DNA of 64,000 nucleotides from Parelaphostrongylus tenuis (Eukaryota > Nematoda > Chromadorea > Rhabditida > Metastrongylidae). Positions 16,765 through 62,260 of the stretch are shown here, piece after piece. The stretch is from positions 62,001 through 126,000 of the forward strand of contig JAHQIW010007105.1 in the NCBI GenBank assembly GCA_019055375.1, in the 5' to 3' direction. The notes under the pieces are model-generated. The model was not told where the DNA came from, made no database searches, and worked only from the letters and a program-made list of their open reading frames with translations. The position numbers were made by a program, and so were the translations under genes. Every line of letters starts with the position of its first letter. The first letter of the stretch is position 1.

Positions 16765-16830
16765 CTACTCCAGTATATGTATATATATATATATATTTTT
16801 ATCTATTTATATACGCATTTATACACATAT
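16765..16830. repeat. TA-rich microsatellite
   Basis: Imperfect alternating TA with ATGTATGCAT ends. Confidence 0.7.
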
Positions 16831-19010: not shown

Positions 19011-19796
19011 AATCCATCGGCCGGAAAGAAGAACAATCCATTGGGAAAAAGATAGATACCTCGTGAAGCTTTGAATCAAGATTAGTTTCTTAAGCTTTTC
19101 TTCTCATTTCCAAAGTGTTGGCGTCATTGATTCTCATCGTCTCGTCAAACCTCCTCTCTACAAAGATGGAAGTACTGTTATGGTACAGTGATATCACATT
19201 CAAAGTCTACGAATAATAGTAAAGTCGGCCAAAATCCTGCACTCAAGTAGAAAGAAAATGCACTAAAATCTGAGAGCTGTTCCTACCAAATAAACTTTCT
19301 CCTTAGAAGATATTGGTAAACTACCCATCAGCAAGCATCATCAGAATTCAACAAGCTATACGTTGAATAATAGGGGTAAAACAGAGCAAAAAAATTGGTC
19401 CCCACTCTTTTGACCTTGAATGAGCCTTCGACATTGCTCAGAACGACGAGTAGGGAGAGGTTGTAAAGTTTTAAAGCCATACCAGGTCCTGTAAAGTTTG
19501 AGAATTTAGGGCAACGATTTACACCTATAACTCACATGCACTTGCGTACGAAACTTGTATAGAAGACCTAATAATGCCGTGGCGTTTCCGTTGAAACGAG
19601 TGTCAGCATAATCATCAAATACTTTGACAAACTATTAATCCCGACTGAACGCTTACGGGTAAAACGATGTGGATCATACGAGCTCTGCTCATTTTCGGCT
19701 CGCGCACCAATATGGACCTTTGACAGTGCAAAATTCAATCATTTAATCAAAAATTTAAATAAACCCAATGGTGTAGAGCGGCGTGCTAAAACGTTT

Positions 19797-19868
19797 GCGT
19801 CAGCCGAGATTGGAACCCAGATCTTACTCTTCTCGGAAGCATGTGCTAAGCCGTTGCACCACCGTCGC
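19797..19868 (-). other. tRNA-like SINE head (72 nt)
   Basis: It folds as a cloverleaf: acceptor GCGACGG/CTGACGC with one mismatch, D arm GTGC/GCAC, a 5-bp anticodon arm with loop CCGAGAA, and T arm CTGGG/CTCGG. Position 33 is C, not U, so it is unlikely to be a working tRNA. Confidence 0.55.
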
Positions 19869-20264
19869 TCCTTTTGCACTCCACTCTTTCTACGCTAAAA
19901 GGCGTTATCTGTCAACCGTCTACGGTGTGGCCGGGCAGTCATTATCGACATTAAACCCACTTTTGTTGACAGATATTGGGTTCAATAATCAATCGGAAAT
20001 CATTTTTATTTGACCGCTGATTGCGGTGTTATGATGTCTAAATAAACCCAATGATGCGGAGTGGCGTGCAAAAACGTTTGCGTCAGTCGGGATTTGAACC
20101 CAGATCTTATTCTTTCCGGGATCTGATTTCCAATTGATTATTGAACCCAATATCTGTCAACAAAAGTAGGTTCAATGTCGATAATGACTGCCCCGCCACA
20201 CCGTAGACGGTTAGCTGTTGACAGATAACGTGTTGTAGCGTAGAAAGAGTGGAGCGCAAAACGA

Positions 20265-20336
20265 GCGTCGGTGGTGCAACGGTTAAGCACATGCTCCCGG
20301 AAAGAGTAAGATCTGGGTTCAATTTCCGGCTGACGC
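20265..20336 (+). other. tRNA-like SINE head (72 nt), best cloverleaf
   Basis: All four arms pair: acceptor GCGTCGG/CTGACGC, D arm GTGC/GCAC, anticodon arm TGCTC/GAGTA with loop CCGGAAA, and T arm CTGGG/TCCGG with loop TTCAATT. The spacing is exactly tRNA-like (7-2-4-9-4-1-5-7-5-4-5-7-5-7). Universal U33 is replaced by C and no CCA-independent function can be assumed, so I call it a SINE head or pseudo-tRNA. Confidence 0.6.
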
Positions 20337-20779
20337 AAACGTGTTGCGTGCCACTCTACATCACTGGATTTATTTAAACATCATATGTTGCTGTTGCTGC
20401 AAAACTTTCAGTGGATTGGACCTTCAAATGGGTCGCCTAGATTGCTTCTTCTCAGCATCATGAGTAGTCTGACCGATGACCATAAATTACACATTTTTAT
20501 ATAACAGATAAGGACGGAAAATGTAACACTGCGTTTGGAGGCTTGTCGAACTCCGTTGAGTATATTGAGAAAAGGGTAAGGAGAAATACAGTGGAATACA
20601 AGGCTGAAGTGACGTGATGATTAATCCTTTTGGGACGGAATGTATTCATTTGATTACATGATCTTCTGAAGGTTTTACTTGTTGAATGAACTTTTTATCC
20701 GAACTTTTACTAATCTATCGAAAACTAGAATTCTGGCAATTTTAATAATGTTTTGGTCTCAAAAAATTTTTTTTATTGC

Positions 20780-20960: not shown

Positions 20961-22400
20961 TCCATATTCAAACTGCTTTGTTTTTAGAGCAAAGTTTTGA
21001 TAGCTTTTCCATGGAATTGGCATGATACATTCTCAAACCTCGACAGCTTTGAGGTTTAAATTGATTTTTTGACAAGTTTTACATGTAGATAGCGTCAGAA
21101 AAAGTTCTGATGCTGTCTGCCTCTTCTTGAGCATAGATTATCAATCTCGGATGAGACATCTTCATCTTCCATGTTTCGTAAGCCCATGTTATGCAACAAT
21201 GGCTATTGCACTTTCGATGCACTTTAGATCATGCTTACAGTAAGTGCCCAAACACTCTCATGACTAACCTAACATGAATGACCTCTCTTTTTGCTTTTGA
21301 ATCACTCGCGTAATCCAGCTTGTTTGGTGTTTGACCTTTTGACGCGAAGTTGTTGTCAATGTGTGCTCTACAATCTTATTCTGAAATTTCCAATCCAGCT
21401 CTAACTTTGCTATACTCTAACCAAAAACCTGCCCTCTGAGGAAGCGTGTATAATTGGTCGAAGGTTAGTTCTAGGCTCCACTTCGACATGCTCTCTCTCT
21501 CTTCGACTTGCTCTCTTCGACCTTCTCTTCTTCTGATGTCTACGCTAAGAGCAATCACCCTATATAACCATTGTTATTGTTGTTTTGTTATCATAGTGAT
21601 AAACGATAATCCAAGACAAGTAATTTGGTACAGAAGTAACTGATAAAAGTCCGGCGTGGCATAAGCAACTCTAACAACTCAATATTACCACTGAACTGCC
21701 TTTGCTACATTACATAAAGCGTACTGAAGCAAAAAGAAAATCACGTTTTGCACTCAGAGTAGTTTATCCGTTGCACGGACATTATAGCGGCTTCATTTGG
21801 CAATGTAAAACAAGAAAAAACTGTGCACCCGTAGAACGATAGAATAAAGCCTGTTCTACAGTTTCAATTTATTTTTCTCCAAATATTAGAAAAATTGATG
21901 GGGCTGTTGGAATTCGTTGCGAGCAGCGTCATTAGGAGTGCGATTTGGTAAGTTACTTAGTAATCTTTTCTCTCCATTTCAAAAGAATTTCTTGATTTTT
22001 TGTACTGCAATTGTGGAAGAAACTTTGTTCTAGCCACATAGGTACAGGCTTCTCTTTAGATTGCTGTTGCCAAATATGCCCTCAATGATGATCTAACGAC
22101 GGACAGTTCGATTGCGGAACACGATTTTCTTGCTGCTCTAACAGAGCTCTGTGCAAGCCTTTCAAGAAACTAAATTTAAACATCAGAACTTACGGGATTT
22201 ATGCTATCGAATGACTGCCACTTATTTGGCAAAAGGCCACCCCCAGACTCAAGCCAAGCAAGAAAAGCAAATTGAATGTCAAACATAATATTATTTTTGC
22301 GGCTGTAACGCAATAAGGAAAACTCCATATAAACCAAACACAGTACTGAAAGTGCCGACTTTTCGAATGATTACGAAAAGTCTAAAGCAAAATCAGTATC
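20961..22400. other. No recognisable gene
   Basis: Contains a CT-rich tract near 21490-21530 on an otherwise AT-rich background. No supported exon or repeat match. Confidence 0.5.
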
Positions 22401-22509
22401 TTCTTCTGTATAGCCGCTCCGAAGTGTTATTAATAGTATTTATTGAATATCAGCGAAGCATATAACAATACAGTTAATAATGCAGCACGAATATTACAAC
22501 AGTCGTGGT

Positions 22510-22547
22510 GGCTAACGTTTCGGCATGGTTCGCCATCTTCAGAGCCT
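22510..22547 (-). ncRNA. Hammerhead ribozyme in PLE-3 tail
   Basis: Minus strand: GGCT, core CTGAAGA, stem II with GGC/GCC, GAAAC, cleavage triplet GTT, then AGCC. Stem I is a perfect GGCT/AGCC and stem III is ACGT. GTT is a permitted NUH triplet. Confidence 0.7.
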
Positions 22548-22743
22548 GGAAAGGTCAAAATGATTCGCAAATTATTACATCAAAAGCCTTTATAACCCTA
22601 GCAGAAAACGTAAGAGATAAATTTTTGGGTCGCATAGAAAACTTTCATTTCAAAAACACTCACCGCTTAGATGTTTTAGGTCGTTCAATTAATCATTGAA
22701 GCCTGCCACTTGGAGTCTGTGCTAATGTGAGACTGTGCCTGGT

Positions 22744-23367
22744 TCAGGTCGGGAACATTAACGTGAGATATGATGCTAGGTCACGCGTTACTACGAGGCA
22801 TTCCTCTTTGCGGTTCATTTTTGGGCCTTTGCTATGAATCCAGAAGGCTTCCAAAGTTTTACGCGTAGACGTTTTCGATTCCTGTGCAAGGACCGTCACT
22901 TTAACTTCAAAATCTGCTCCCTTATGCTTCTGTTCCTTATGCGTGCCTGGTGGGGTTTTTGGGTAGGAGTTACGTTTCCCAACTAGGTGCTCTTTCACGC
23001 GGATGCAGAGTGGTCTACCCGTTTCGCCAATATATTCATCCCCGCATGCCTCGCAAGAAATCAGGTAAATTGTATCCGACCTCATGCAGTCGCCGTCTCT
23101 GCCGTTTGGGCAAACTTTGCAGTTGTTGGTTTCCCAGAGACAATTATCCAGCCGGTTGCTGACTAACTGGCGTTTTAGTGTTTTTGGTGGTATCTCGACT
23201 ACTGCTACCGAATTATCTAAACGTGCTCTTTTCAAGCAGCGTTTAATGGCCGCACTCACTTCGCTAAAAATAAAAGGCAGGATGAATGGAACTTTATCCT
23301 CGCTAGACCATCCGTGTAGGGGCGCCGAATTATTAATTGTATTGTTATATGCTTCGCTGATATTCAA
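22744..23367 (-). pseudogene. PLE GIY-YIG endonuclease C-terminal fragment
   Basis: A 207-aa frame matches the last half of the PLE-2 protein from PFILPFIFSEVSAAIKRCLK onward. It keeps a Cys cluster CKVCPNGRDGDC, then TIYLISCEACGDEYIGETGR with the GIY-YIG Tyr and Arg residues, and ends NRKEECLVVTRDLASYL. The reverse transcriptase is missing. The first 15 residues (MNISEAYNN...) derive from the inverted repeat and are not native PLE sequence. It is uninterrupted, so the nuclease domain itself could still be readable. Confidence 0.8.
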
Positions 23368-23830
23368 TAAATACTACTAATAACATCTCGGAGCGGCTAA
23401 ACAGAAGGATCTGATTCTTCAAACATGCCGAGGTTATAGATGCGCCTGGATTTATTCTAAAGAAAAGTTTTCCTAACATGAAGTTCTGTAGAGTGCTTAT
23501 GAATTTACATTCCGTCTCACAGGGTTGAGAAAGAAAAGGATCGCTGATATTCAATAGCCTGAAACTAAGCTAATTAACATTCCTCGGAGCGGCTAAACGA
23601 AGGTAGATACGATTCATTATCAAACCTAATTGCCTGAGGTTAATAGATATACCGGTCCGATGGGATTCTGATTCTGAAGACAGGTCCTACATCGGAACAT
23701 TACTGGTAGAAACAGTGCTTATGAACTTATTCTACCATGAAAGTTCGTAGAAGTGCTTATGGAAATTTATACATTCCGTTCGACAGGGTTGAGGAACAAA
23801 GTACCATACTCGCTTTGGAAACTGAAAACT
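23350..23830. repeat. Two diverged tandem copies of a terminal module
   Basis: GCTGATATTCAATA followed by CGGAGCGGCTAAAC occurs at about 23356-23405 and 23543-23598. A GTAGAGTGCTTATGAATTTA block followed by a CATTCCG-GACAGGGTTGAG block occurs at about 23487-23528 and 23746-23795. Both belong to the sequence flanking PLE-3, suggesting repeated terminal copies. Confidence 0.6.
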
Positions 23831-28639: not shown

Positions 28640-28870
28640 CTTTATCTCGAGTGCTTTGTTTAGACCACGCTCAAATTTCAATATATCCTTTCATCATTAT
28701 TTGAGCCAACATGTCATGTGGTCTGGTAAGGGCTCTTGTACAGCCCGAGACACGTTCGAACAGACGACGGGTTCTGCCCGGCTGATGAGTCTGTAAAGAC
28801 GAAACACGTGTGTCGAGCTGTACAAGAGTCCTACCAGACCACAATCCATTTCCCTTGAACATTGTGATTC
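28640..28870. mobile_element. F3 hammerhead element, internally deleted
   Basis: The left arm has GAGCCAACATGTCATGTGG and GGCTCTTGTACAGCCCGA. The right arm has TACAAGAG-CCTACCAGACCACA. The middle, present in the copy at 50750-51130, is deleted, as is the left ribozyme. Confidence 0.6.
28776..28820 (+). ncRNA. Hammerhead ribozyme (F3), altered cleavage site
   Basis: GCCCGG, core CTGATGAG, stem II GTCT/AGAC closed by a GTAA tetraloop, CGAAAC, palindromic stem III ACACGTGT, then GTCGAGC. Where other F3 copies have A at the cleavage position this one has G, which is not a permitted NUH base. The core is otherwise intact. Confidence 0.65.
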
Positions 28871-34270: not shown

Positions 34271-34377
34271 CAATATTATCATTAGTCCATAAAATCGACT
34301 GTTTTGAAAATCTCGTAGTAAACAATCAGATTCCGAAAAAAAAGAATGATTTTAGCCTAAACGAGGTTGGTACGCCA

Positions 34378-34426
34378 GGGCCATGCACCGATGTTTCGGA
34401 GGTTTCGGCCTCCTCGTCAGTGAGGA
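34378..34426 (-). ncRNA. Hammerhead ribozyme (F4), minus strand
   Basis: Core CTGACGAG, a perfect stem II GGAGG/CCTCC with a CCGAAA loop, GAAAC, then stem III around ACATCGGTG. The base before the cleavage nucleotide is C instead of U (GCA), and stem I is only partly paired, so cleavage is doubtful. Confidence 0.65.
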
Positions 34427-34663
34427 GCGTAGGCCATATGGCCCTGGCGTACCAACCTCGTTTAGGCTAAAAACATTCTTTTTTCGGAATTTGATTGTTT
34501 ACTACGAGGTTTTGAAAACAGTCGATTTTATGGATTAATTTTGGTCTACCAGCCGAAATCCATCGACTGATGGTGATGGACCAGTGTCATTGTACTCTAT
34601 GCCATCACCACTTACCACATACGCCTCCTTCCTTGCTAGAATGCAGGGCTTAATGTGGGGCGG

Positions 34664-34712
34664 GGGTCACTGACGAGGAGGCCGAAACCTCTGAAACATC
34701 GGTGTATGGCCC
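34664..34712 (+). ncRNA. Hammerhead ribozyme (F4), intact
   Basis: Stem I GGGTCA/TGGCCC (6 bp), core CTGACGA, stem II GGAGG/CCTCT (5 bp, closing G-U) with a CCGAAA loop, GAAAC, stem III ACAT/GTGT, and cleavage triplet GTA at 34704-34706. All invariant bases are present. A decoy GAAAC inside the stem II loop can mislead motif searches. Confidence 0.8.
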
Positions 34713-34790
34713 TGGCGTGCCAACCTCGTTTAGGCTAAAAACGTTCTTTTTTTTCAGAATTTTATGATTGTTTCAGCAAATCCAAGTTTT

Positions 34791-42740: not shown

Positions 42741-42812
42741 ACCTAGGGCTTTATAGGGCTAGAAAGGATCGTACTCGATAATAACTAACATGTCTTGAGC
42801 TGTTTGTCAGGT

Positions 42813-42863
42813 CTAAGTGCTAGACAGGCGCCTGTTCCGTCCTCAAAGACTCCTCAGTAGCTC
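42813..42863 (-). ncRNA. Hammerhead ribozyme (F1), two core changes
   Basis: Minus: GAGCTA, CTGAGGAG (allowed N7), a short stem II, CGGAAC in place of CGAAAC, palindromic stem III AGGCGCCT, GTC, then TAGCAC. The A-to-G change in the GAA triplet is likely inactivating. Confidence 0.6.
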
Positions 42864-43045
42864 AGTCCCTCGGTTCAGTCGATCTGTTGAGGCGGACAGG
42901 TATGATTCATTTTCGCAGCCTCAAGCTCGACTGCTAGTCTCTGCAATGTTAGCGGACTCTATCACTTGACTTGCCGTGATTTACTACTCGGCGTAGATCC
43001 CTTCATAAGGAGTATAGCCTCAAAGGATCAACTGAACCGACGGAC

Positions 43046-43096
43046 TATGCTACTGACGAGTCCCTTGAGGACGAAACGGGCGCCTGTCTAGACTTA
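43046..43096 (+). ncRNA. Hammerhead ribozyme (F1), core intact
   Basis: TATGCTA, core CTGACGAG, stem II GTCC/GGAC with loop CTTGA, CGAAAC, stem III GGGCGCCT, GTC cleavage triplet, then TAGACTT. Stem I is shortened to 3 bp by changes on both strands. The catalytic core is complete. Confidence 0.7.
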
Positions 43097-43199
43097 GACC
43101 TCACGAGCGACTTAGAACATGTTATATCAATAGAGTAAGACATTCCCAATTGATACAGAAGAAACTCTATCACAGCAAAGATTCGGTTCATGTCCATTA

Positions 43200-43922: not shown

Positions 43923-46900
43923 TTACACATCGAAATCTTCTTCAGTAGATCTTTTCAGCAGATTTGTAACATGTTCAGGACGAAGTTGCTGAAGACTATC
44001 GTCCACGTACGGTCCAGTACCTGATAGTTGACCAACACCTACAGACCTGTTATTGGACAATAAATCGGCTGTGCTTCGATCTGAGCCTCGCCATTCAACG
44101 TTAGGCTGCAGAAGACAGAACCTAAATGTAAATTGCCAATTTACCACGCGCATCACATCTGCACACCCTTCAAATGTTAGGTGATATGATACAAAGTAAG
44201 ATTGGCGAACTACCTGTCGTTGGGCAGTTTCAAGCCGAAGTTATGACGAACTTGCGGCAATGGTTGTCCGTTTCGATCACTGGCCATTTTAAGAACTTCA
44301 GCACGCCTTGGTCTCGTATCATAAAGAATACCTGAATAGTTTATAGCGAAAAACTGAACTAAGATCTGGTACAGATCGTTAAAAATACCTTCAATTGCAT
44401 GCATTCATCTCAGTGCACAAACAGGAGCTAGGTTTGATATAAATACTTGTTTCAAGGCATCATGAGCATTCATTAGTTTCTTTGGCTACGGATGTTTTTT
44501 GCTTCACTTTTTCTACTCAATCGGGAGCTTAATCAAGAAGGATGTCGTGTTAGACAAACCGTGAACAGCCGTTTTTTCCGCTTACAAATCTATGCAGAGA
44601 AATGCCTTTCCCGACCGAGTTCATGCATTGGATTGAAATCCTGCTGCTGGTGCTAGCCACTGTGAAAATTGAAGTTCCATCCTTATGAACACATTGTGGT
44701 TACGACGAGATGATAAAGCAACAAGAAAACTTGTACAAATGTGATTATAGTTTGTAAAAGAAGTACGGAAGCGCAGTCCATCAATGTGTGTAAGGGTTTC
44801 TTTTTCGTTTGGCAACACATCAAACCTATCCCCTACGCCGCAGAAGAAGTTTTCATAAAGAATGCTAGTATTCATTCAAAACCTTAAATCTCAGGCTATC
44901 GCTTTCCGAAGCCCATTTTTTGTAAAGATTCTTTTATAATACTGAGAAATTAAAAATGAAATTATGTTTCACATTACCCACGCAATACAACTCTTACTTC
45001 GCTGGAAGCACGAAAAGCACATGAATATGTGGAGAAAATCTTCCAGAATCAGAATCAGACGTTTAATCCGAAATTCTTTAGAAATCGGAGAAACGCTTCT
45101 TAATCAAATACACCTTTCTTAGATGCCATTGATCGATGTTCGCACAGACACCCCAACGCTCCCCACCCCACCGCACGTGAATTGGCTGAAGACTAAAGAA
45201 CACTTGCTCGTGCATCTGAATCAATCTTATATTCCCAGCTCGTCGCAGAGAAACAGTCTTCTCAGGATATAAACGCAGCGTTGGAATCGGTAAGTTTTAC
45301 ATTATCAAATGTAAACCATTAGTCTAAAGAAAAGCTGTGTAGAGCGAGAAATATGCTCGTGTGAAACATAATATTACTTCAATTTCTTCAATGTTACAAA
45401 GGGGTCTTTCTAAAAAATCGGTCACGTAGAACGCTTGCTTGAGAACTAAGCTTTCGGAGGATTGTTAACACTCTTTATGAGAACTCCTTGCCCAACGTAG
45501 GGGATAGGCTTGAAAATCTGTGCTACCAAACCAAAAAGTACCACACCAGACATCTTTAGAATCACTGCAGATACCAGCTCCTGTTCTTACAACTTTTCAT
45601 TGAACATCTAAAAATGTTGAGTGGTATGCAAAACATTTAACCCAAGGCGATATGAAACAGCGTTCCACTTATACGGAGGGTGCGTGCTACCAATGGACCA
45701 CCGACATCGCCGCTTTTCTACCATTCTTTCTGCGATTTGAACTATCAAAGCAGCCAGAATTAAAGGCGAAAAAAAGGAAATTCGCGTTCATCTCTTTTGG
45801 ACGTTACGTCATAACCCAAAAATCAAGTGTCGTAGCCAAAGCGTTCCTTGATAAGTCATAATATTGAGGTTTTAAGTAGCAAATGCACATTGCTCTGTCT
45901 TTCTGGTTGTGGACTGTGAAAAAAGAAGAGTCTGCCAGTGAAAACATAGCAGAAAAAAAGGACTTGCTGAGGTGTTAAAGAATCTACAACTACTCACCAC
46001 AAAAATCCACGGCCATCTGTACATCAGTCTCATCGATTACAATTTTCCCGCAATGTTGCGACATAGCTTTCGCTTTCATAAGCAAACCAGAAGTTGTCGC
46101 GTAGAGCAACTGAAAAGTCGTGAATTGTTATATAACTTAAAGCACATTGTTGTGAAAGGGAATATATTTCAAGCTGTTATATAACTTCTTTCTTTCTTTT
46201 TTATCCATATTTTTGTAGTCAATCGATAGCGTGGGAATTACTTATTCCCCACTAAGTCTGATTGGGGAATGACTTTTATTTCACTTTCTGCTGACAAAAA
46301 GAACTGACGCTTTGCAAGCAGAGTTTCTTTATGGAGTATCTGCCTTTTTCTCTAAATTTCGAGGTTTTAGGAGGAAGCATTACCATTGTTTCTGCTACAG
46401 ATAGCTTTATTTCATGTGCTTTCTTGAATTCACGCTTAAATTCAAAGAATCTCTTCATTTTCACTTGAGCCAACATGTCATGTGGTCTGGTAATGGGCTC
46501 TTGTACAGCCCGATACACGTGTCTCGACACTCGTCAGTCGAGCAGAACCCGTCGTCTTTCAATCAGTCTTAGAAAACACACGAAATAAGGTTATAATATG
46601 ATAAAAAATACCAACCAAAGAGCAATCGAATGTGAAACACTGCAAGTTCGATGATAATTTAACTTGACTAACAATGTAAAACGTTGTCTTCGATACTTCT
46701 CTGTAGGGAGAGCAGGGCTCCTGAGAGATCGGCTAGAAAGATTGAAATATGAGGGGTTCTGCCCGACTGACGAGACTGATCGGGCTGCACAAGAGCCCAC
46801 TGCTAGACCACATGACATGTTGGCTTAAATAATAAAGAAGAGAAAACTTATCTTGATTAGCTGACGAGAGGTTGGTAAATTAGTCGTAGAAGTTCGGCTG

Positions 46901-47760
46901 ACGTTTCGGCGACCCGCCTCTTCAGAGCCTGGGCGTATGTAGTATTAAATTTTGACGTGACTGCCACAATCCTAGTGCAGGAATCAAAAACCTCCAAGCG
47001 CAAAACTCTTGAGGCATTTTGGATAAACGCCCAAAATCCCGAAATGAATCGGAAGGACGAGTGCGTCACCATCACACGAGATCTCGCGCCTTTTCTTCGC
47101 TTGATCTTCTAACTTGACCTAGGCAGCATATAAATAAGACCATTCGAATCATTCAAATAGTCTAATACTACATACGCCCAGGCTCTGAAGAAGGCGGGTC
47201 ACCGGAAACGTCAGCCGAACTTCTACGACTAATTTACCAACCTCGCGTCAGCTAATCAAGATAAGTTTTCTCGATTTTCATATAACAATCAATTATGCCG
47301 AGGTTTATAGAAAGTCGAACTTTTGAATTGTTGCAATAAAGAAGAGAGCTACAGATAGCTTCATCGACGTCTCTACTGTTATATTTAGTCATTTACTAAT
47401 GGCGAAATTTTCTTTAGTGACGAAAAAAATCAAATTTCATTAGAACACGACCACAACGTCATTGTAGCCGCCGTGCACAAATCAGCGTCGTTGTCAACGT
47501 GTTAAGAGACTGAATGATGAATAAAAAATTTTACAGTCCCACTCTGCAAATCAATCAAAAGGCATTTAACCATAGGTAAAATACTATTACCCACGTCGAG
47601 AAGAAGATGTACCACACGAGGGTCATAGTCGACAATGCCGGCTTCCTCAATGATTGCCTTCAAATGCGTAATATCCCGACTCGCATCCATAGCAGCACCC
47701 TCTCCCATGTCAGAATCATCACCGTAGTTAGACGTGTCACCACCACCACCACCGCACCTC
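43923..47760 (-). CDS. taf-9: TFIID subunit TAF9-like, four exons
   Basis: Exons on minus are A ending 47595 (5' edge about 47760, conservative start ATG at 47708), B 46109-45998, C 44331-44214 and D 44121-43923 (TAA). From 47708 they join in phase (114+112+118+199 nt) to 180 aa. TAF9 forms a histone-fold pair with TAF6 in TFIID/SAGA in the nucleus. The histone fold is spread over exon A (DITHLKAIIEEAG, then DYDPRVVHLLLD) and exon B (LMKAKAMSQHCGK, then DETDVQMAVDFC). Exon C has the conserved post-fold block LPQVRHNFGLKLPNDR. Exon D is a TAF9-type C-terminus ending in acidic residues. Acceptors are TTTTCAG, ATTCAG and TTTAG. An ATG at 47773 is out of frame, though the exon-A frame is open upstream, so the N-terminus (a Gly-rich stretch) is uncertain. 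Introns hold M, SINE, F3 and PLE insertions. Confidence 0.85.
44868..45505. mobile_element. M element in taf-9-like intron
   Basis: Left arm (a CTTCGCTGGAAGCACGAAAAG block, AAATTATGTTTCAC) matches 43360-43400 and 59190-59230. The right arm (AACATAATATTACTTC, GTTACAAAGGGG) is its inversion. Confidence 0.55.
45600..45715 (-). repeat. tRNA-derived SINE, degenerate, in taf-9-like intron
   Basis: Shows the SINE tail (complement TGTTGAGTGGTATGCAAAAC) and an A-box-like TGGTCCATTGGTAGCACGC on minus. The B box is lost. Confidence 0.45.
46400..46840. mobile_element. F3 hammerhead element in taf-9-like intron
   Basis: The left arm (GAGCCAACATGTCATGTGG, 46469-46488) is inverted to the right arm (CCACATGACATGTTGGCT, about 46808-46826). 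Both ribozymes are damaged. Left (46508-46543, minus): stem I GCTCGA/TCGGGC is nearly intact and the core CTGACGAG is present, but stem II is cut to 3 nt and CGAGAC replaces CGAAAC. Right (46761-46788, plus): CTGACGAG is followed directly by ACTGA and TCGGGC, so CGAAAC and stem III are deleted. Confidence 0.65.
46896..46930 (-). ncRNA. Hammerhead ribozyme with canonical core (PLE-5 left)
   Basis: Minus: AGGCT, core CTGAAGAG, stem II GGCG/CGCC with a GGT loop, CGAAAC, GTC cleavage triplet, then AGCC. Stem I is GGCT/AGCC (4 bp) and stem III just ACGT. It is the cleanest PLE hammerhead in the window and is in sense with the taf-9-like pre-mRNA. Confidence 0.85.
46948..47112 (+). pseudogene. PLE protein C-terminal fragment
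   Basis: The plus strand reads DVTATILVQESKTSKRKTLE, then FWINAQNPEMNRKDECV and TRDLAPFLRLIF, then TAA. It aligns without gaps to the PLE-2 and PLE-3 C-termini. The GIY-YIG core itself is absent. Confidence 0.8.
47180..47216 (+). ncRNA. Hammerhead ribozyme (PLE-5 right), stem II altered
   Basis: GGCT, CTGAAGA, a stem II that has gained AC and a G, GAAAC, GTC, AGCC. It differs from the left arm by small indels in stem II; stem I and cleavage site are intact. Confidence 0.65.
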
Positions 47761-48163: not shown

Positions 48164-51100
48164 TTAAGAATTCATCACATTACGAACAAAGTCGGCAATG
48201 TTCACATTCCCGTGAGAATCGTTGTGTCCAGCCAAAAGCTGATCAACTTCTTCATCCGACAAACGCTCACCTAGAACAAAAGAGCAGATCTCTTTAGTAA
48301 TTTGAAGCTTCCAAATATAAGGACTACTATGAAAAATTCGTTCTCGTTCATCGACTATTTCAAGACCTCATTCGAAAACAGTACAATCTGATAACATAGT
48401 TTCAACCTCTTCATGTCTGTTATGGCACTTCATAAAGTGCTAGACACGTGTCTCGGCATTCCAACCTCATTAGTAACACGATGCCTTTTCGTTCAGTCAG
48501 TAAGTTCCTCAGCGATATATATATCTTCTGTATAGAGGAACCGACCACGAAATTTTTACGCTCGACTACGGTGGAAGGACAGTGATCATAGATTGTATAT
48601 GCTCTCCCGTGATGTCGACGTGAAGCCTTGGATGTGTTCAAATATGCTGCACCACTCGCCGATGTGGCTCTCAGAATTCTCTTCGACAGCCGCAAGCCAT
48701 GCAATCGACAATCAGTCACTCCGAAGGAACGTCACGGTGATCCTTTCACCGTACGTCGATTGTAAGGAGTTCGTCGTCGATTCCTCTATATAAGGGGTAT
48801 ATCCTCGAGGAACTGACTAATCGAAGAGGCAACGTAGTATTGATTAGGCTGGAAGGCCGAACACGTGTCTTGCACTTAACAGTGCTATAACAGACCTCAT
48901 TAAAGCTCAGAATATCTTATGAGGTATTTTGTTCCGTTGTATTTTGTGAAAATCGACTCGCTTCTAATCTACTCATTATAAATTCCAAGATCGACTATCT
49001 ATTAAGCTCCGCATGGTCAATAATTCACAATTTTTCACTTGATTGGCCAAACACGACCCTAGTGTTAGGCTTATTAGTGAAAAACTGTGAATTAATCAAC
49101 ACACCTTTCCATTTATAAACATTCTGTCGCTAAACTTAAGGCCAAGAATTCCACCTCCTCAACTATCTGTTCTCAACAAATAGCAAAATGTAGTTCGACT
49201 GTTCATAGAAGTGCCTACTATTTTAGATTGCTTTGAGGATACGAAAAGATTGTAAAATGGATTTCATATGACTTCAATGACGATCAAATCTACGTTTATA
49301 CAACATCAGCAACAGCCAAATTGTTTGAAACATGGCGAGGTCATTTTTGATCAATTATAAAGCCAGTACTGCGGCATAAAAAGCAAGGCCTTAGCAATTT
49401 ATTCCAAAACAGCTAAGGATTCTGCAACGAAAAGTAGCTGTAGACGGTGGCTAATCGGGACAGAGAAGTGGAATCGTTGGCACGCACATGGGTCACTGAA
49501 GTAAACTGGTTATGAAGGATTTCGGTGTACCATGGTCTTCCTCATCCAGCTACCAGTAAACGACTACCTCTTCAAACAACTCATCGTGTAAACCATTCGC
49601 TTGAAAACATTCAAAGTACAATCGCCACAACACTGGATCACAGAGCGCGTAAGGCGCAGTGGCTGAAGATGCTCTGCGATCCACACATAGTCGCCGGTTC
49701 AGTGCCGCGCCTAAGGCTCACTCAGCTTCTAGTCCTCGAAGTCGGCGAGTTGGTGCTAGATTTGTCCAAGAGGGCAGCAGCACTGATTTGGCACATTTGT
49801 GTGACACTGTGAGTCACTGTGGAGGTCAGATATCTATTCATTCACTTCTGACAATGCTCGAGAAGCCGAATGCCTGGCGCACCCTTCACGGATTGATCAA
49901 CGCTGACAGCCTTATGTTTGCTATTAGACAGAATGCAGAGAGATATGATGCTGGCCGTAACGCCGATCAGAACATAGAGTTGGTAGCATTCCTGCGTTGT
50001 GACTTTCGATCAAAAACATACAGCTGACAGCACTTTTATATGCTGAATCAGACCGGCTGTAGCGAAGTAGCGTTTCACCAGAGAAATTTCTTAGTCCTCC
50101 ATTCCTACATAAGCCTAGTTCAAATCACTCCAGCCACTTCTTTCACAACAGTTCTTGCTATGCTCGACAACATTCATCCAGCCTTCTCTTTTCCAATCGT
50201 ATTCGTATGTGTTTAACTTCAATCGTGTTCCACAACATAACAAGAGGATTACAGACTCAAATCCAAATACCTCACCCTCTATAACACTCATAATTTTCAG
50301 ATCCCGAACACTAACGCTACGTAGACGAGATTTCCAGCCATATAGAACGTTGAAAACATAGCATTGCATCTAGCTGATGCTTGATTGAAAATGATAAGGT
50401 TTAAAGTAATAGCAATAGTTAGAAGCTCTTGAATGGAAATCCTACACCTCATTCTATACTAAAAAAACCTCTACAATGACAAACCTAAGGTTGTGAGCAG
50501 ATGACGTAGCTCTGCGACGTTGATCAGTCCATTTCCTTCTTTATCGAAGTGAGAAAGACCTTCGACAAACTCTTCGACGGTGTGCTTCTCCCTCAAATAA
50601 TGACATGCACAGCAAGATCGCAAAAGCACAGAGATCAGAGTTCTAACAGTATACAGAAAAAATCTTTTGGAACAACAGTACCTTCCACCTAATACCCTTA
50701 TAAATGTCAAGCTTAATAAGACGAATACGCACTTAACAATGCAATTATCTTGTACCTTTATTTCGAGTGCTTTGTTTGAACCACGCTCAAATTTCAATAT
50801 ATCTTTTCATTATTATTTGAGCCAACATGTCATGTGGTCTGGTAAGGGCTCTTGTACACCCGATACACGTGTTTCGTCCTTACAGCCTCGTCAGTCGGGC
50901 AAAACTCTGTGTTAGGTGAAGATTTCGCTTGACATAGAGTGTAAAGCGTTCGTCTTCGATAACTCTCTGTAAGGGAGCAGAGCTCCCGAGAAAACTGACT
51001 ATAAAAATATCGAAGGACGACGGGTTCTGCCCGACTGACGAGTCTGTAAGGACGAAACACGTGTATCGGGGTGTACAAGAGCCCTTACCAGACCACATGA

Positions 51101-54100
51101 CATGTTGGCTCAAACAATAATGAAAGAATGCAATTATCACTAAAGACCATCTATAGGCTCACCAAATCATCGCTGATATGCCAGTGCGCATAGTTCCCTA
51201 TGACTTCTTATCACCTTAACGGCTACTGGGTTTCCCTAAATGCTGAATCGTGATGCAAAATTGATTCCAACCGTGTCTATCAATTTTATAAATCTAATGT
51301 TCCCGTCGGATATGGTCTGTGATAATGTTTGCAACCTTTTCGAGGGTTGGTACGTCAGAGCCATACGTACGTTTCGGAGGTGTCGCTCGCTTCTTCAGTG
51401 GCCCACGCCCCACACTGAATCTTGCTTTATAGCAGGGATGAGACGTTATCTATAGTGATAGCGCAAAATACTGTATTATCATAATTTTTCAGTCGATAGA
51501 ACATGGCTGCTAATGAATATGTGGGCTATTGATGAAGCGGGCGACATCGCCGAAACGTACGTATGGAACTGCCATACCAACCTCGAAAGGACTCTAAACA
51601 TCCTCACAGACTATATAGAGTGTTTATAACGAGGTTTCAAAACAGTGGACGAGGTGGATTTCTACATATTCACTACCAGCCATAATTCACGACTAAAAAG
51701 TGGTGATAACACAACATCATGTGCCATAAAGAAAGCCTCCCCAACCCTGTTCTAGAGTTCAAAATGGGGCATGGGCCACTTCACTGATGAAGCGGGCGAC
51801 ACCGCCGAAACATAGGTATGGCTCTGAAGTACCAATCTCGAAAACCTCACAGACCATATTGAATGTTCAATGCCAGGACCGACTGCCCGGGCCAGGCCGT
51901 TGACGGCTGGGGGCTGACAGACAGGTTCGCTGTAGCGTATAAAGAGCGATGTGCAAAATGGGCGTCAGTAGTGTAACGGACAGAGCACGCATTCCCGGAA
52001 AGAGTGAGGTGCGGGTTCTAGTCCCAGCTGACGCGAAAGTTTGCACATCTCTCTACTCAATCGGTATATATTTGTAACATCATACCACCGTTATAAGCGG
52101 TTAAATAAGAAAAATATCATTATATTGAATGTTGGAACGAGATTTAAAAACAGTCGATAGTGGGTCCCCAACAAGATTATCAGCTGAAAGTAGATCTATG
52201 GAAACGCGATGAGCTTACTGCGTCTACGTTCTCGCCAAAGCGAGTAGAGAAACAAACGGTTCTACATTGAACAAGTAAGATCCACCAAGGTCCTTCCAGA
52301 AGGCAGAGCCTACTTAATTTTCTGATTCGCGAGGGAATGAAACTCGAGTCACGTGTTTTCGACAGATTTTTACAATCTTTAGCGCGATAGATGGCTCAAA
52401 TTCATTTCCTCGTATTCGACCCTTCAACACATACATAGTTTCAATTTTGTAAATGAATTAAGCGAATAAAAAATGAGTAGTCCAACAAACACAAATCAAA
52501 TAAATTAAGTTTTACATAAATAAACTGAACCATAACTATTCACTGAACCGTCTAAGGGCCAAATAAACTCACTTTGTTTCGAAGTTACTTTTTCCACTTC
52601 TACTCCGCTCCAATAACCAATTTACTCTTTTAATTTTCCTCAAAATTCCTGCACGTCATAAACAAGATCGAAAATATTACATGATGAGATGACAGAAAGA
52701 AAGAGTAATAAAATAATAAAATGAAAGTCCAAATGAGCAAAAATATTATATCTCCTACGCGTTTCAAGCGGCGCGCTTCCGGACTCCCTTGAAGCGCGTT
52801 ACCTATGCGTACGTTTCTGATAAGAATATAACATGTTTTGACGCGTTAGGTCTAGTGCTAAACAGGCGCCTATTTCGTCCTAGTGGTACTCATCAGTAGC
52901 ACCCCCTCCCCCTCGGTTCAGCCGACCCATTGAGGGTAAATAATCCTCTATGAAGGAATCGACGCTGATAAATAAATCACCACAAGTCAGATGATGGAAT
53001 TATCTGACATTGCCGATTCCTTCACAGAGGATTATTTAGTCTCATAGGATCGGATGGAACCGAGGGAGGAAGGGGAGGGGAGGGGTGTGCTATTGATGAG
53101 TTCCAGTAGGATGAAACAGGCGCCTGCTTAGCACTAGACCTAACGGCCCAAAATTTGTTATATCTTTATCAAATCATATTGTTTTGAGCGGGTCCATAAA
53201 AAAGCGGTCGAAAAAAGAGGTATGTGTGTTTTTCAACGTATTCTTTTTTCTCGCGCCCGAGAAAGATGGTGACCACTGGGTTCAATAGGACGATCGCTCC
53301 ATCGCTCAGTTCTCGAAAAGGGAAGAGGAGAAAAAAAAAGAACTACAAGCCAGCCAGTTAAAAGAATTGAGCAGTCAATAAAGAGGACTGTTTTGTATGC
53401 ACGCGTGTACACTATAGTGTTCATGTTGTTCAAAAGGTTCTCTAATCGCAGTTATTGGTTAACATTCGAAAATAATTGTTCTTACGAGGAAAACCCTATG
53501 AATTCACCAACGTTTCATCGACCAAAACAGAAAGCATTTTTACGCATTTAGACCTAATTTTGGTAAGATATAGAACCCATTGGGATGAATAAAATCTGTC
53601 CTAATGCAAAAGGTAATTCCTTAAGATAGCCAAATAGCTGCCAAGAAAACTCACCGATTCTTACTGATCGACTGAAAAATTGGCACAAAATCCTCGAATG
53701 AAAGACGGGCCTCTTTCTCGTAAGCAGCACAGCATCGTCCAATTTCCGCTTCAGTTGGATTTTGTCCAAGAGCACGAAGAACGTCACCAACATGAAAAGA
53801 GAAAACAAGTACAACATTCGTTTTACTCAGTTTATCACTTTATTTGACCCGTATCACATTTCCTTTTTTTTTACTGCGCGGGTCCCATACTTCTAGGGTT
53901 CTCTTCCTTGAGGACTTCATCTTCCTCGGAAACAATATAGAATACTGGTCGAGCACTTCTCCTCGCAATCTCGAGTACAGCCAGGCTGGGGCGTTCTGTA
54001 GGGCGTTCGCCATGATTGCCGAAGAGCGTCGGAGAACCACCCCTCGTCGAACCACGCCGAATATCACTAGCCACTAGACCACAGCTCCCCTTCCTACTCA

Positions 54101-56439: not shown

Positions 56440-56580
56440 CTTTTCGGCAGTCTTATGATGTTTGAAACATACCCAAGAGAACTGAGTGGTGAGCAAAAAT
56501 CTGACCCCGGGCGGGACTTGAAACAGCGTTTCACTCGTATCGGAGGCGCCTGCTACCACTACACCACCAAGGCACCGTTT
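56440..56580 (-). repeat. tRNA-derived SINE (head 56503-56574)
   Basis: Minus: A box TGGTGTAGTGGTAGCAGGC; the T-arm half is mutated. The tail complement reads CCAAGAGAACTGAGTGGTGA. The sequence from 56180 to 56440 holds nothing else. Confidence 0.6.
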
Positions 56581-56599
56581 CGCTACCTACGTTCCGATA

Positions 56600-56770
56600 T
56601 GTTTGCTTCAGTATGGGTGAAACGCGGGTTCAACTCCCAGCTAAGATCTTCATTTTGCCCATCACTCTATTGAATAATTCTCCTGAAGTACAACTGTTGG
56701 GTGATGTGCAAAACTCTGACACATCGGGCAGGAGTCGAACCCACGCCTCACCATTTCCAACCGGACAGCG
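56600..56770. repeat. Two partial SINE heads
   Basis: A plus-strand T-arm half (GAAACGCGGGTTCAACTCCC) near 56621-56660 and a minus-strand one (complement GGAGTCGAACCCACGCC) near 56718-56764, with the shared GGTGATGTGCAAAACTCTGA tail between them. Confidence 0.5.
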
Positions 56771-57504: not shown

Positions 57505-57800
57505 TATTCGTCATACTCCCTCTTTTTGGTGAACAACCTTTGCCCCGAAAAACACGGGGGAGAGAAAAATTACGTCAGAAAAAAGAATTAGTGACAAAAA
57601 AACATGAAATGTCTCTCTCTCTCTCTCTCTCTCTCAGCCTTCTTCTTCTTCGTCTTTCTTTCTCTCTCTCTCTCTCTAAGAAGAAGAAGAAGAAGTCATA
57701 CTCCCTCTCTCTGGTGAGCAATCTTTGTCCCAAAAATTAGAAGGGGAGAAAAATTACGGCAGAAAAATAGAAATAGTGACAAAAAACAAGAAATGCAGAT
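57505..57800. repeat. About 105-bp direct repeat separated by CT/CTT microsatellite
   Basis: TCATACTCCCTCT, GGTGA-CAA, GGGGAGA-AAAATTACG and AATAGTGACAAAAAACA-GAAATG occur at about 57511-57611 and 57696-57796. Between them are CT runs and AAG runs (57610-57696). Confidence 0.65.
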
Positions 57801-57949
57801 CACGAAGGTGAAGAATAACGACTGGAAAAATACATATGGAAGGGAAAATAGAAGATAAAACACACCCGAAACCGTCAACAGCACCGTTAACAATAAACAA
57901 TATAAATTCCAAACTTCCTCAGGTTTCCACTACCTTTTCGCAGTTTTAT

Positions 57950-58070
57950 AATGTTTCAGAAATACCTAAGAGAATTGGCTGGTAAGCAAAAATTCCGACC
58001 TCAGACGGGAGTTGAACCCGCGTTTCGTCCATACCGAGAACGCGTGCTCACACTACACCACCGAGGCCCG
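57950..58070 (-). repeat. tRNA-derived SINE with good cloverleaf (head 57997-58068)
   Basis: The 72-nt head has an 8-bp acceptor GGCCTCGG/CTGAGGTC (two wobbles), D arm with TGGTGTAGTG, and T arm CGGG/CCCG around TTCAACT. The tail complement is CCTAAGAGAATTGGCTGGTA. Best copy of this SINE in the window. Confidence 0.65.
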
Positions 58071-58193
58071 CGCTTATGGCTCAGCCTAACTGGGTTTTTA
58101 GAGCGATATTGCGTACCCGAACAAACCTGTCGATGGTTGGTGACTGATAGATAAGACAGAGACATACTGAAGAATGAATGGTGACTAAACGGT

Positions 58194-58310
58194 AGCCTCT
58201 GTGGTGTAGTGGTAGCACACGTCACCGGCATGCATGAAACGCGGGTTCAACTCCTGTCTGAGATCCAGTTTTTTTACTTACCACTCAATTCTATTGAACA
58301 CAATATAGAG
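58194..58310 (+). repeat. tRNA-derived SINE (head 58194-58265)
   Basis: A box TGTGGTGTAGTGGTAGCAC, B box GGGTTCAACTCCTG, then the tail TTACTTACCACTCAATTCT. Opposite orientation to the copy at 57950-58070. Confidence 0.65.
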
Positions 58311-58568
58311 TACTGTAATAGTTACGCGACTACAAGTACTGAATAGTCTTTCACCACCGAATCGCTCGAAGACTGCTGCTTGTCAAAACAGGTCGTTAAT
58401 TCCACCGACGAGAAATGAAATCACCAAACCTCCATCTCGTCGAAGAATAAATTCAGCGAAACGATGCGATACGACAACTGGAATGGTGATAAACTAGGAT
58501 GTTATTCTGATAATTATTCTTTGAGCCACGAATGTCAATGGTCTGTTAAAGGAGGGCTGACTTATAGA

Positions 58569-58611
58569 GCCCGATACACGTGCTTCGATCTTGCGATCTC
58601 GTCAGTCGGGC
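58569..58611 (-). ncRNA. Hammerhead ribozyme (F3), GCAA-loop variant
   Basis: Minus: GCCCGA/TCGGGC stem I (6 bp), core CTGACGAG, stem II GATC/GATC with a GCAA tetraloop, CGAAG (15.1 is G, pairing with U as a wobble), ACGTGT, cleavage after GTA. Confidence 0.8.
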
Positions 58612-58763
58612 AGTTACCCTTTCTCGTCTTTTGCCAATCCTGTGAAGGTGCTCCAGTCTCCACACTAAGAGTTAGCGACGACGAACGTTTTACACTCTAT
58701 GTCCAGTGAAATTATTATGATGGAGCACCCACACAAGATTGGAAAAGACGAGAAAGGGTAACT

Positions 58764-58806
58764 GCCCGACTGACGAGATCGCAAGATCGAAACAGGTGTA
58801 TCGGGC
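58764..58806 (+). ncRNA. Hammerhead ribozyme (F3), GCAA-loop variant, intact
   Basis: GCCCGA 58764-58769, CTGACGAG 58770-58777, stem II GATC/GATC around GCAA, CGAAAC 58788-58793, stem III ACA/TGT, cleavage expected after 58800, TCGGGC 58801-58806. Every core base and all of stem I are intact. Confidence 0.85.
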
Positions 58807-59035
58807 TCTATGAGCCAGCCCTCATTGACAGACCACTGACATGTGTGGCTCAAATAATGATTATCAGGCATATTAAAATTTGAGCTGTGGTCTTAAGAAA
58901 ACACTCGAAACGGAAGATAAGATTTTATTACTTTCCCATTTTCTCTTGTTATCCAAAAAAAATCCAGAAAAACTGGAGGCATAACCCGCTAATACAGGTG
59001 CATACGGGTTGACACCCCAGTGATTACAAAAGTCA

Positions 59036-59940: not shown

Positions 59941-60143
59941 TATGTCACATTAATCGCTCACGACGACGAGCCTCGGGGTCCTCATTTAAGCCTTTGAATG
60001 GAAACCCGCAAAAACCAGCTTGAATAATAAGAAATTATAGAACAAAAGCTTTCAATAGACTTTTCTGAGGACCTCGCTCAAAATCCAATGCAGTCTGATC
60101 GAATGTTTTAGGCCTTTCATGAGGTATGACACCGGTACGTCTA

Positions 60144-60190
60144 GTACTAGACATACGGGCCGGCATTCTTGCAAGCCTCAGAAGTAGTAC
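60144..60190 (-). ncRNA. Hammerhead relic (F2)
   Basis: Stem I GTACTA/TAGTAC is perfect, but CTGATGAG reads CTTCTGAG and CGAAA reads CGGCC. Stem II GGC/GCC is recognisable. Inactive. Confidence 0.5.
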
Positions 60191-60371
60191 ATGCCATTCG
60201 GTTCAGCTCACCTATTATAGGGAATCGATGCCAAAAAGTATCACTCCAGGCCAAGTGAAATGATCTTCTGATGTTACAATCCATTTTCTCTCACAGTGAC
60301 TAGATTCAGAAGTCAGAGTGAACTTTTTCGGCGTCGAATCCCTATGATAGCAGGGTGACCTTGGATGGCAT

Positions 60372-60419
60372 GTGTTACTGATGAGGCTTGCGAGGAAGCC
60401 GAAATATACGTCTACCGAC
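60372..60419 (+). ncRNA. Hammerhead ribozyme (F2), intact core
   Basis: GTGTTA, core CTGATGAG at 60378-60385, stem II GGCTT/AAGCC (5 bp) with loop GCGAGG, CGAAA, short stem III, cleavage triplet GTC at 60410-60412, then TACCGAC. Stem I is weak. Confidence 0.7.
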
Positions 60420-60499
60420 TAGAGACGCCATATCAGCCCTTATAAAAAGGTTTGAAACATTCTATCAACTAGTTAAAAAATTCAGCTACTCATATATTA

Positions 60500-61854: not shown

Positions 61855-62260
61855 GCTGCTGAAAAAAAAGTCCTATTGGGCCTCATCAGTAGCATACCTA
61901 TCGGCTCAAAACATGCCCTATCCTTATCAGATTATATAGTTTTGACAAGCCTGTGAATGGGCGGTCGATAGCAGAGGTTATGATTCATTATAAAAGCCGC
62001 AAGTTCGACTGCCGGTCACGACAACGTCAGGTAATACCATTATCCGACTCGAGGTGATTATTTTTTTACTCGGCGTCAATTCCTTTAGAGGAACATCTAG
62101 CTTCAAGGATCGACGCAACCGAGGAAGTGTGCTACTTATGAGTCCAATAGGAGGAAATAAGCGCCTATATAGCACTAGACATATCGCCTGAAAATTGTCA
62201 TATCCATACTAGATTAAATCGTTTTGAGCGAGTCTATAAAAGAACCTCTTGAAAGGCTTA
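61855..62260. mobile_element. F1 element, partial left arm
   Basis: The left arm ribozyme (61869-61895, minus) keeps CTGATGAG and stem II but runs into a poly-A tract where CGAAAC should be. The right arm ribozyme is at 62129-62175. A GGCTCAAAACATG block and a direct TATCAGATTATATAGTTTTGA follow. Shares the interior CTCGGCGTCAATTCCTT with the other F1 copies. Confidence 0.6.
62129..62175 (+). ncRNA. Hammerhead relic (F1)
   Basis: Stem I GTGCTA/TAGCAC perfect; CTTATGAG (G5 to T), stem II TCC/GGA, GGAAAT (11.1 C to G), AAGCGCCT, ATA. Two core changes. Confidence 0.55.

Follow-up and report, generated by a model that had tools for sequence, protein, structure and literature searches.

Penelope-like elements (PLEs) have been described with inverted as well as direct pLTRs, an optional tail at one inverted end and target-site duplications (TSDs) of 8-10 bp, which some copies lack; unrelated sequences captured between the pLTRs are also on record (PMC3846280). 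The anole PLE is reported to be the first with in vitro activity; there, cutting and extension affect both strands of the DNA, and reverse transcription (RT) starts at two sites within the RNA, with the tail lying between them (PMC11167929). In the same report, hammerhead mutants showed unaffected insertion in vitro, and no reads started or ended at the cleavage site. Metazoan non-LTR retrozymes, described as direct tandem repeats, are non-coding units of about 170-400 nt with a type I hammerhead, and with TSDs of >4 bp; PLEs were named strong candidates for moving them on the grounds that the two co-exist and have hammerheads and tandem occurrence in common (PMC7229834). The words "inverted" and "nematod" are absent from the main text of that paper.

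The window analysed here is a 64,000-nt stretch of a Parelaphostrongylus tenuis contig, and its elements (families F1-F4) resemble both systems. They derive from non-coding units of 255-320 nt, each unit carrying a single type I hammerhead (F1 282 nt; F4 255 and 268 nt; F3 320 nt, from the spacing of two direct hammerheads at locus L011), and they share with the retrozymes direct tandems and PLEs in the same genome, as well as TSDs, here of 9-14 bp at 16 of 29 F3 sites. In contrast to the published direct repeats, many copies stand head-to-head with a tail. An autonomous PLE has an RT and GIY-YIG open reading frame (ORF), whereas F1-F4 have neither RT nor endonuclease, the ORFs lying in separate copies and in the fragment P3; the TSD size is similar to that of PLEs, and RT would start downstream of a hammerhead, as in the anole PLE. 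The sequence-only reading did not know the mirrored layout as a described class; inverted PLE pLTRs with tail and TSD are already published (PMC3846280). With a probability of roughly three in four, we regard the elements as insertions of non-autonomous retrozyme-like retroelements, probably made by Penelope-like machinery that this nematode itself encodes, with the mirrored pairs as a by-product.

A strict hammerhead descriptor yielded 9 window matches with a score of at least 12, compared to a mean of 0.175 (maximum 1) in 40 dinucleotide shuffles. The Rfam hammerhead models gave sub-threshold scores only (25.3 bits at 51029; 31.3 bits as the best in the window). A covariance model (R1), for which 11 motifs from F3, F2 and F4b served as training set, was used at a cut-off of E<=0.01 and detected 24 motifs in the window, including 13 held-out ones (F1, F2b, F3d, F4a), which confirms the proposed type I hammerheads. 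Exact matches were obtained at 51029-51071(+) and 58764-58806(+), both training motifs, with the partners 50858-50900(-) and 58569-58611(-), respectively. Across 26 motifs, pairing was seen in 260 of the 312 stem cells (shuffle mean 198), a value reached by 0 of 5000 shuffles. The predicted outward-facing layout, minus on the left and plus on the right, was found in nine elements at E<=0.01 and is shared by several families; in a tenth element at 34.4 kb (F4a) the left arm reached E=0.052. The F3 family and P3 comprise the following features (features without a strand are given by coordinates only).

50738-50749: left TSD of F3a, AATGCAATTATC, 12 bp, identical at the two ends (P=0.0014)
50750-50804, minus strand: F3a tail, about 55 nt beyond the arm, at one end only, common to F3b, F3c and F3d
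50805-50905, minus strand: left (short) copy of F3a, outer arm and hammerhead 50858-50900 (97% arm identity to the right copy; R1 E=1.8e-15, training motif; second pair of stem II broken)
50906-51126, plus strand: right (long) copy of F3a with body, hammerhead 51029-51071, outer arm and tail-less end (R1 match, arm comparison)
51127-51138: right TSD of F3a, repeat of the left one
58507-58910: F3b, mirrored, hammerheads 58569-58611(-) and 58764-58806(+) (R1 matches), tail on the right
28641-28841: F3c, mirrored, left copy with the hammerhead mostly missing, right copy with hammerhead 28776-28818, in which H17=G (R1, alignment)
28629 and 28842: F3c TSD, CAATCCATTTCC, repeat at both ends
46408-46843: F3d, mirrored, damaged hammerheads (R1); TSD GCTACAGATAGCTT at 46394 and 47348 (TSD search)
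46844-47334, plus strand: P3, PLE fragment, hammerheads 46896-46932(-) and 47178-47216(+), arms 98% identical, tail at the right end
46831 and 47335: P3 TSD, AATAAAGAAGAGA, repeat at both ends

P3 is nested in the right end of F3d and carries, between its mirrored hammerheads, the C-terminal 54 codons of a GIY-YIG ORF (57 and 63% identity to the two PLE ORFs of the window). It matches the short elements in its mirrored hammerheads, in TSD size and in the geometry of its ends. The relation to PLE terminal repeats that the sequence-only reading proposed is supported. Among the five elements for which a duplication could be defined, the cleavage site lies 45-64 nt from the tail-less end (29 nt in F3c) and 106-122 nt from the tailed end (P3 56/122 nt, F3a 61/114, F3d 64/106). 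The sites lie 29-122 nt inside the ends and not at the element edge, near which the sequence-only reading had placed cleavage. Further PLE copies are present in the window.

9817-11058, minus strand: fragment of a PLE ORF that includes RT and GIY-YIG domains (Pfam RVT_1 and GIY-YIG)
22391-23416: P2, PLE truncated at its 5' side, with outer arms 22391-22481 and 23329-23416 in inverted orientation (91%) and one hammerhead, 22509-22549(-) (repeat comparison)

A minimal hammerhead (9579-9617, minus) lies downstream of the first ORF, whose named relatives, among the matches listed, are from strongylid nematodes; among viral contigs, a search for PLE relatives gave one weak locus, which was set aside. 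A PLE tail motif was detected in the tails of F4, F1, F2 and F3 with single-test P values of 0.003-0.1 in 12 of 16 cases and P>0.25 in the other 4. The case for insertion by the PLE protein is circumstantial: the plan is shared with P3, and the likeness of the tail motif is moderate. The remaining families are arranged as follows.

42786-43130: F1a, head-to-head pair, monomer 212-276(-) and 89-276(+); hammerheads 42817-42863(-), 43047-43094(+) (monomer alignment, R1)
52816-53224: F1b, head-to-head pair, monomer 135-276/1-44(-) and 188-276/1-95(+); hammerheads 52855-52902(-), 53087-53134(+) (monomer alignment, R1)
11507-11824, minus strand: F1c, direct copy, 1.1 units of the 282-nt monomer, single hammerhead 11550-11597(-) (monomer alignment)
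11500 and 11821: F1c TSD, CAAATTCTTAA, 11 bp
1851-2561: F1d, array of direct minus copies and a head-to-head plus copy; hammerheads 2113-2159(-), 2437-2483(+) (monomer alignment, R1)
61870-62243: F1e, short minus copy, then a 1.2-unit direct plus copy; hammerhead 62129-62175(+) (monomer alignment, R1)
48360-48912: F2a, mirrored, both cores mutated, 48437-48479(-) and 48834-48875(+) (R1)
60060-60470: F2b, mirrored, degenerate hammerheads 60144-60190(-), 60372-60415(+) (R1)
34281-34773: F4a, 268-nt monomer, minus 229-266/1-101, plus 1-268/1-62; hammerhead 34664-34712(+) E=5.7e-7, left arm 34386-34420(-) E=0.052
51310-51867: F4b, 255-nt monomer, minus 101-255/1-53, plus 222-255/1-255/30-61, three hammerheads (monomer alignment, R1)

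Read by eye, the core letters are kept in both arms of four of the eight named elements (F3a, F3b, F4a, F4b), with reservations: a mismatch in the left stem II of F3a, A15.1 = G in the left arm of F3b and a weak closing pair and stem I in the left arm of F4a. The claim that each arm encodes a complete hammerhead was not confirmed; at least one arm is broken in F1a (left core, A13G), F1b (right core, C3U), F2a (both cores) and F2b (left arm). F4b has three hammerheads (51358-, 51523+, 51778+) rather than a pair. As had been stated, the eight elements are non-coding, the longest ATG ORF ranging from 14 to 72 aa, and an RT and GIY-YIG ORF is absent from F1-F4. Direct copies reading through the cleavage junction occur in F1 and F4 (1.1-1.4 units) and in the F3 tandem at L011; long tandem arrays were not seen, the direct tandem arrangement itself being present in all three families, and no insertion joining two families was found. 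Adjacent elements may also face each other, as do the hammerheads at 51029(+) and 51358(-), which are 287 bp apart and belong to separate elements.

TSDs in the window measure 12 bp in F3a and F3c, 14 bp in F3d, 13 bp in P3 and 11 bp in F1c (P 0.001-0.0024 each). No exact TSD of at least 9 bp was found in F1a, F1b, F1d, F1e, F2b, F4a, F4b, P2 or F3b. A 17-bp candidate for F1c proved to be an arm repeat, so that the 11-bp repeat was taken, and a 10-bp "TSD" of F2a, a match between arm and tail motifs, was excluded from the count. A genome search with F3a as query returned 6751 first-look candidates, 40 of which were scored and 29 used as independent simple sites; L003-L008 (the insertion of L002), L018 (the same as L014) and L039 (with the flanks of L033) were left out, as were the complex sites L026, L029 and L040, in which the short copy did not align cleanly. 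Genome copies were listed for F3 only and represent a lower bound. An exact TSD of at least 9 bp is present at 16 of the 29 sites (9 of 13 in the first set, 7 of 16 in the second; length 9-14 bp) and was not found at 13, whereas pairing left and right flanks of different sites, a control covering the first 13 of the 29 sites, reached 9 bp in 3 of 156 combinations.

Miniature transposons with terminal inverted repeats are short, non-coding and bounded by inverted ends and a TSD. The inverted terminal repeats and TSDs observed might accordingly suggest DNA transposons, either MITEs or fold-back elements, which carry hammerheads by chance in their repeats. Here, however, TSD length varies from 9 to 14 bp, the ends are asymmetric with the tail usually at one of them, junctions differ between sites, direct copies of these families exist as well, and one element of the same plan (P3) contains PLE coding sequence. 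We consider this origin extremely improbable.

The mirrored plan also occurs in a tRNA-type sister family.

19756-20385: T1, a tRNA in the place of the hammerhead; minus 244-283/1-283/1-41, plus 78-283/1-50 of a 283-nt unit (unit alignment)
51868-52121, plus strand: T2, single copy, TSD ATATTGAATGTT at 51856 and 52122 (unit alignment, TSD search)
57934-58295: T3, mirrored pair (unit alignment)

These elements are without a hammerhead, show the outward-facing mirrored plan as well as direct read-through of the tRNA, and end about 40-54 and 74-108 nt past it; no convincing TSD was found for T1 and T3. Some copies start at the tRNA 3' end; since the T1 unit is self-complementary at that point, this was no longer taken to prove tRNA processing. 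Tentatively, the insertion machine might read only the outer arm and the tail downstream of an exchangeable processing module (hammerhead or tRNA-like); the tRNA families would then be ribozyme-free analogues of retrozymes, cut by tRNA-processing enzymes, and would owe their movement to the same Penelope-like protein, with priming on the two strands of the target.

Among the 29 F3 sites, 26 classes of inverted junction can be told apart at single-nucleotide resolution, 21 with 2 nt of slack and 16 with 5 nt. Some junctions recur and may be inherited; one class comprises 5 sites within 2 nt and keeps the second hammerhead. Found with a full-length query, the 29 sites favour complete elements; the second hammerhead is complete at 14 and cut off at 15 of them. 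The sequence-only reading had seen the mirrored pair as a functional unit, the transcript of each strand being cut near its 3' edge, which would define RNA ends for mobility. Mirrored pairs are indeed frequent (nine in the window at E<=0.01; 15 of 20 further F3 loci with model matches in minus-left/plus-right order), four of the eight named elements keep both-arm core letters, and the five-site class retains the second hammerhead. The loss of the second hammerhead at about half of the sites, the 16 to 26 junction classes, the direct copies of F1, F3 and F4, the hammerhead-free tRNA-type elements of the same plan and the position of the cleavage sites well inside the ends nevertheless make such a unit very unlikely. 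Because junctions vary, direct copies exist and tRNA-type elements are mirrored too, the layout appears to come with the insertion process; the pair looks made at insertion rather than selected as a unit, with no separate function.

The short copy is the tailed one at all 29 sites, as in the F3a query, and most sites have a tail at one end and none at the other. The ends of the short and long copies are anticorrelated (r=-0.895). This might be explained by fold-back, in which one target-primed cDNA self-primes on its own complement and copies its arm from a single template, an idea raised for bdelloid Penelope (PMC3846280). Self-complementary monomers near some junctions (the F4a palindrome GGCCATATGGCC, the tRNA-flanking stem in T1) and the near-identical arms of F3a, F4a and P3 (97, 92 and 98% within elements, 73-94% between) would fit. 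Homogenisation of the arms at each insertion, as hinted by these three, was however unsupported over 13 F3 sites, where mean arm identity was 0.918 within and 0.908 between elements, which favours two templates over copying of one arm from the other. Moreover, fold-back would not yield tailed and tail-less ends, the state of most sites, and no TSD is expected from it alone; we judge it unlikely, less so than the other alternatives. A predicted RNA fold failed to account for the anticorrelation (P=0.14), and guidance of the junction by an RNA hairpin was not supported.

The preferred reading, insertion of retrozyme-like RNAs by Penelope-like machinery, draws on units, read-through direct copies, head-to-head pairs, TSDs of 9-14 bp and variable junctions. 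It also draws on the ends, which recur at two points past the hammerhead, one tail-less and one tailed, the optional tail being about 50 nt. The template RNA would have an intact hammerhead junction, as an uncut multimer or re-closed circle; both nicked target strands would prime RT, beginning at one of two internal start sites of the RNA, and the two cDNAs would end at variable points before being joined. As joining leaves both RNA 3' sides outward, both hammerheads would face outward. L021, with a tail at both ends and an imperfect TSD (12 of 13 letters, by eye), indicates that the tailed start is usable on both strands; the two-tail reading, first also applied to L011 and L041, was kept for L021 only, the tail of L011 sitting inside its direct tandem. 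Judging from published retrozymes, the hammerhead may free RNA of unit length from tandem transcripts, perhaps so that it can circularise; since insertion of the anole PLE mutants was unaffected in vitro, the ribozyme may not be required for insertion.

As far as can be read from the DNA, our results support the suggestion, published but unproven, that metazoan retrozymes owe their mobility to PLEs, as the retrozyme-like copies themselves bear marks of insertion in the PLE manner (a tail, two end points, head-to-head order, TSD). The inverted PLE arrangement, whose origin was left open in PMC3846280, becomes a footprint countable over many short insertions, and mirrored ribozyme pairs in genomes can, as a warning, be insertion by-products. 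The mobilisation hypothesis becomes directly testable in a genome with about 1 hammerhead per 9 kb sampled (22 matches at E<=0.01 with a model trained on motifs of this genome, in 200 kb made up of 20 chosen stretches, 9 of them contig starts, rather than a random draw). In this sample no F4 match and two partial F1 matches were obtained, and F3-like and tRNA-like matches were frequent.

The window hammerheads scored below the Rfam cut-offs, but several other measures set them apart from shuffled sequence. A strict hammerhead descriptor gave nine window matches scoring at least 12, compared to 0.175 expected from shuffles; in 26 motifs from five sequence groups, 260 of 312 stem cells were paired (198 in shuffles), and a covariance model built from 11 motifs recovered 13 held-out motifs in the window (E ≤ 0.01). 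In the 11-sequence alignment, both-sided changes of stem pairs amounted to 25 cells compared to 9.4 in shuffles, and no excess over shuffles was seen when counting pairs with both-sided changes or pair types. Stem III is short and frequently self-complementary (ACACGUGU, ACGUACGU, ACGU), in F1 carrying variants of ACAGGCGCCUGU. Dimer cleavage of small PLE-associated hammerheads appears in the title of a study cited in a review. The F2 ribozymes in the window are decayed.

The window copies of F1, one of at least four families of short non-coding elements, map to a single 282-nt unit with the cleavage site at both of its ends. The copies are arranged as follows:

11507-11824, F1 direct copy of more than one unit
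61898-62243, F1 direct copy of more than one unit
42.8 kb, F1 head-to-head copies
52.8-53.2 kb, F1 head-to-head copies

F4a and F4b behave like F1 (268-nt and 255-nt unit, respectively), and an F3 locus elsewhere in the assembly (L011) carries two direct hammerheads spaced 320 nt apart; for F2, a direct unit was not found within the window. The cleavage junction is crossed without a break in the F1 copies, the F4 copies and the F3 tandem of L011. Since direct and head-to-head copies occur within the same family, both layouts are available to one family. The middle copy of F4a begins at the hammerhead cleavage point (34432-34444) within the palindrome GGCCATATGGCC, a start that could be the mark of a cleaved template.

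The 481.5-Mb assembly (5105 contigs) was searched with F3a as query, and 29 F3 sites (13 + 16) were kept after leaving out repeat copies of insertions already counted and three complex loci. An exact TSD of 9-14 bp was present at 16 of these sites (9/13 + 7/16); when flanks were paired across different sites among the first 13, 3 of 156 combinations reached 9 bp. Measured against longer natural F3 references, the short copy had its 5′ end between 16 nt downstream and 72 nt upstream of the cleavage site, the long copy between −201 and −126. At nucleotide level the 29 junctions fell into 26 classes; 21 classes remained with 2 nt of slack, one of them comprising five sites, and 16 with 5 nt. The second hammerhead, counted as complete when the copy's 5′ end lies at or before −36, was complete in 14 of the 29 sites. 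A mirrored ribozyme pair conserved as a unit would not be expected to leave such junctions.

The F3 junction pattern is rather what two cDNAs would leave if they were separately primed, ended variably and were then joined head to head. Alternatively, the mirrored arms might originate from fold-back, which would also be expected to give arms as highly alike as those of F3a, F4a and P3, a PLE fragment nested in F3d. Some of the junctions are found at more than one site and may have been inherited, a point against the two-cDNA reading.

As the F3 sites were found by a full-length query, copy lengths and tail position are biased. The 5′ ends of short and long copies were anticorrelated (r = −0.895, 29 sites), which may itself reflect this ascertainment; total element length was nearly constant despite the moving junction. 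The tailed copy was the short one at all 29 sites, matching the F3a query, whereas P3 carries its tail on the long copy; L021 carries a tail at both ends. In nine of the 29 sites the long copy has its start between −186 and −192, which in the 320-nt unit is some 10-15 nt beyond where the tail ends; this start may represent an RNA 5′ end or a stop of the RT after nearly one turn of a circle. The F3a insertion was found with identical near flanks and TSD at seven assembly places (L002-L008), representing segmental duplication or unmerged haplotypes.

Within the window, TSDs of 11-14 bp flank F3a, F3c, F3d, P3 and F1c; none was found for the remaining F and P elements tested, and their absence from many copies counts against PLE-type insertion. 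F3 and P3 carry a tail of ~50-65 nt at one end, and their tail-less end, like the F1c end, lies 45-64 nt past the cleavage site, except in F3c (29 nt). In P3, a mirrored pair of hammerheads encloses 54 codons from the GIY-YIG end; its ends, 56 and 122 nt from cleavage, and its 13-bp TSD match the F3 geometry. Evidence that PLEs may be involved is circumstantial, consisting of the shared plan, this geometry and a moderately significant motif in the tails. At L009-L021 a short motif that may be an RT start signal is common to both F3 end points, reading AAAGGAT where the tail is absent and AAAGGTA where it is present.

A PLE ORF with RT and GIY-YIG domains lies at 9817-11058 on the minus strand. 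Among the best 120 of 279 matches, its named relatives are strongylid nematodes, with identities of 68-78% over partial matches in Angiostrongylus and 46-64% in Ancylostoma, which makes a strongylid worm the most likely host. Two PLE copies in opposite orientation (7510-8576 and 9991-11168; ~1.2 kb) are 77.5% alike. For the anole PLE, PMC11167929 describes an RT start 111-118 nt into the ORF, which is 85-92 nt past the hammerhead cut at +26, a second RT start site, cut and extension on both DNA strands, and in vitro insertion unchanged in hammerhead mutants. Bdelloid Penelope carries, according to PMC3846280, inverted pLTRs along with a tail of 31 bp and TSDs of 8-10 bp. Among the literature matches listed, comprising titles and abstract openings, there was no description of head-to-head or nematode retrozymes.

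Sequences resembling tRNAs likewise occur within mirrored elements. The tRNA-bearing elements noted in the window, mirrored or not, are:

19756-20385, T1, 283-nt unit, tandem and head-to-head, ends 41-50 nt after the tRNA
51868-52121, T2, 12-bp TSD, end ~87 nt after the tRNA
56458-56680, tRNA-bearing element
57934-58295, T3, tRNA-bearing element

Similar tRNA-type pairs were found in a 200-kb sample of the assembly (e.g., L042, L051, L053 and L059), and tRNA-bearing elements also occur at L045 and L047. Of 16 tRNA-type elements examined, two had a TSD of at least 9 bp, namely T2 and an element of L047. The tRNA-bearing elements resemble the hammerhead elements in unit size and end distances, many being mirrored outward. 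Weak Rfam matches to microRNA-family and lncRNA models at 57639-57695 and 16768-16843, well under the gathering scores, are probably due to chance.
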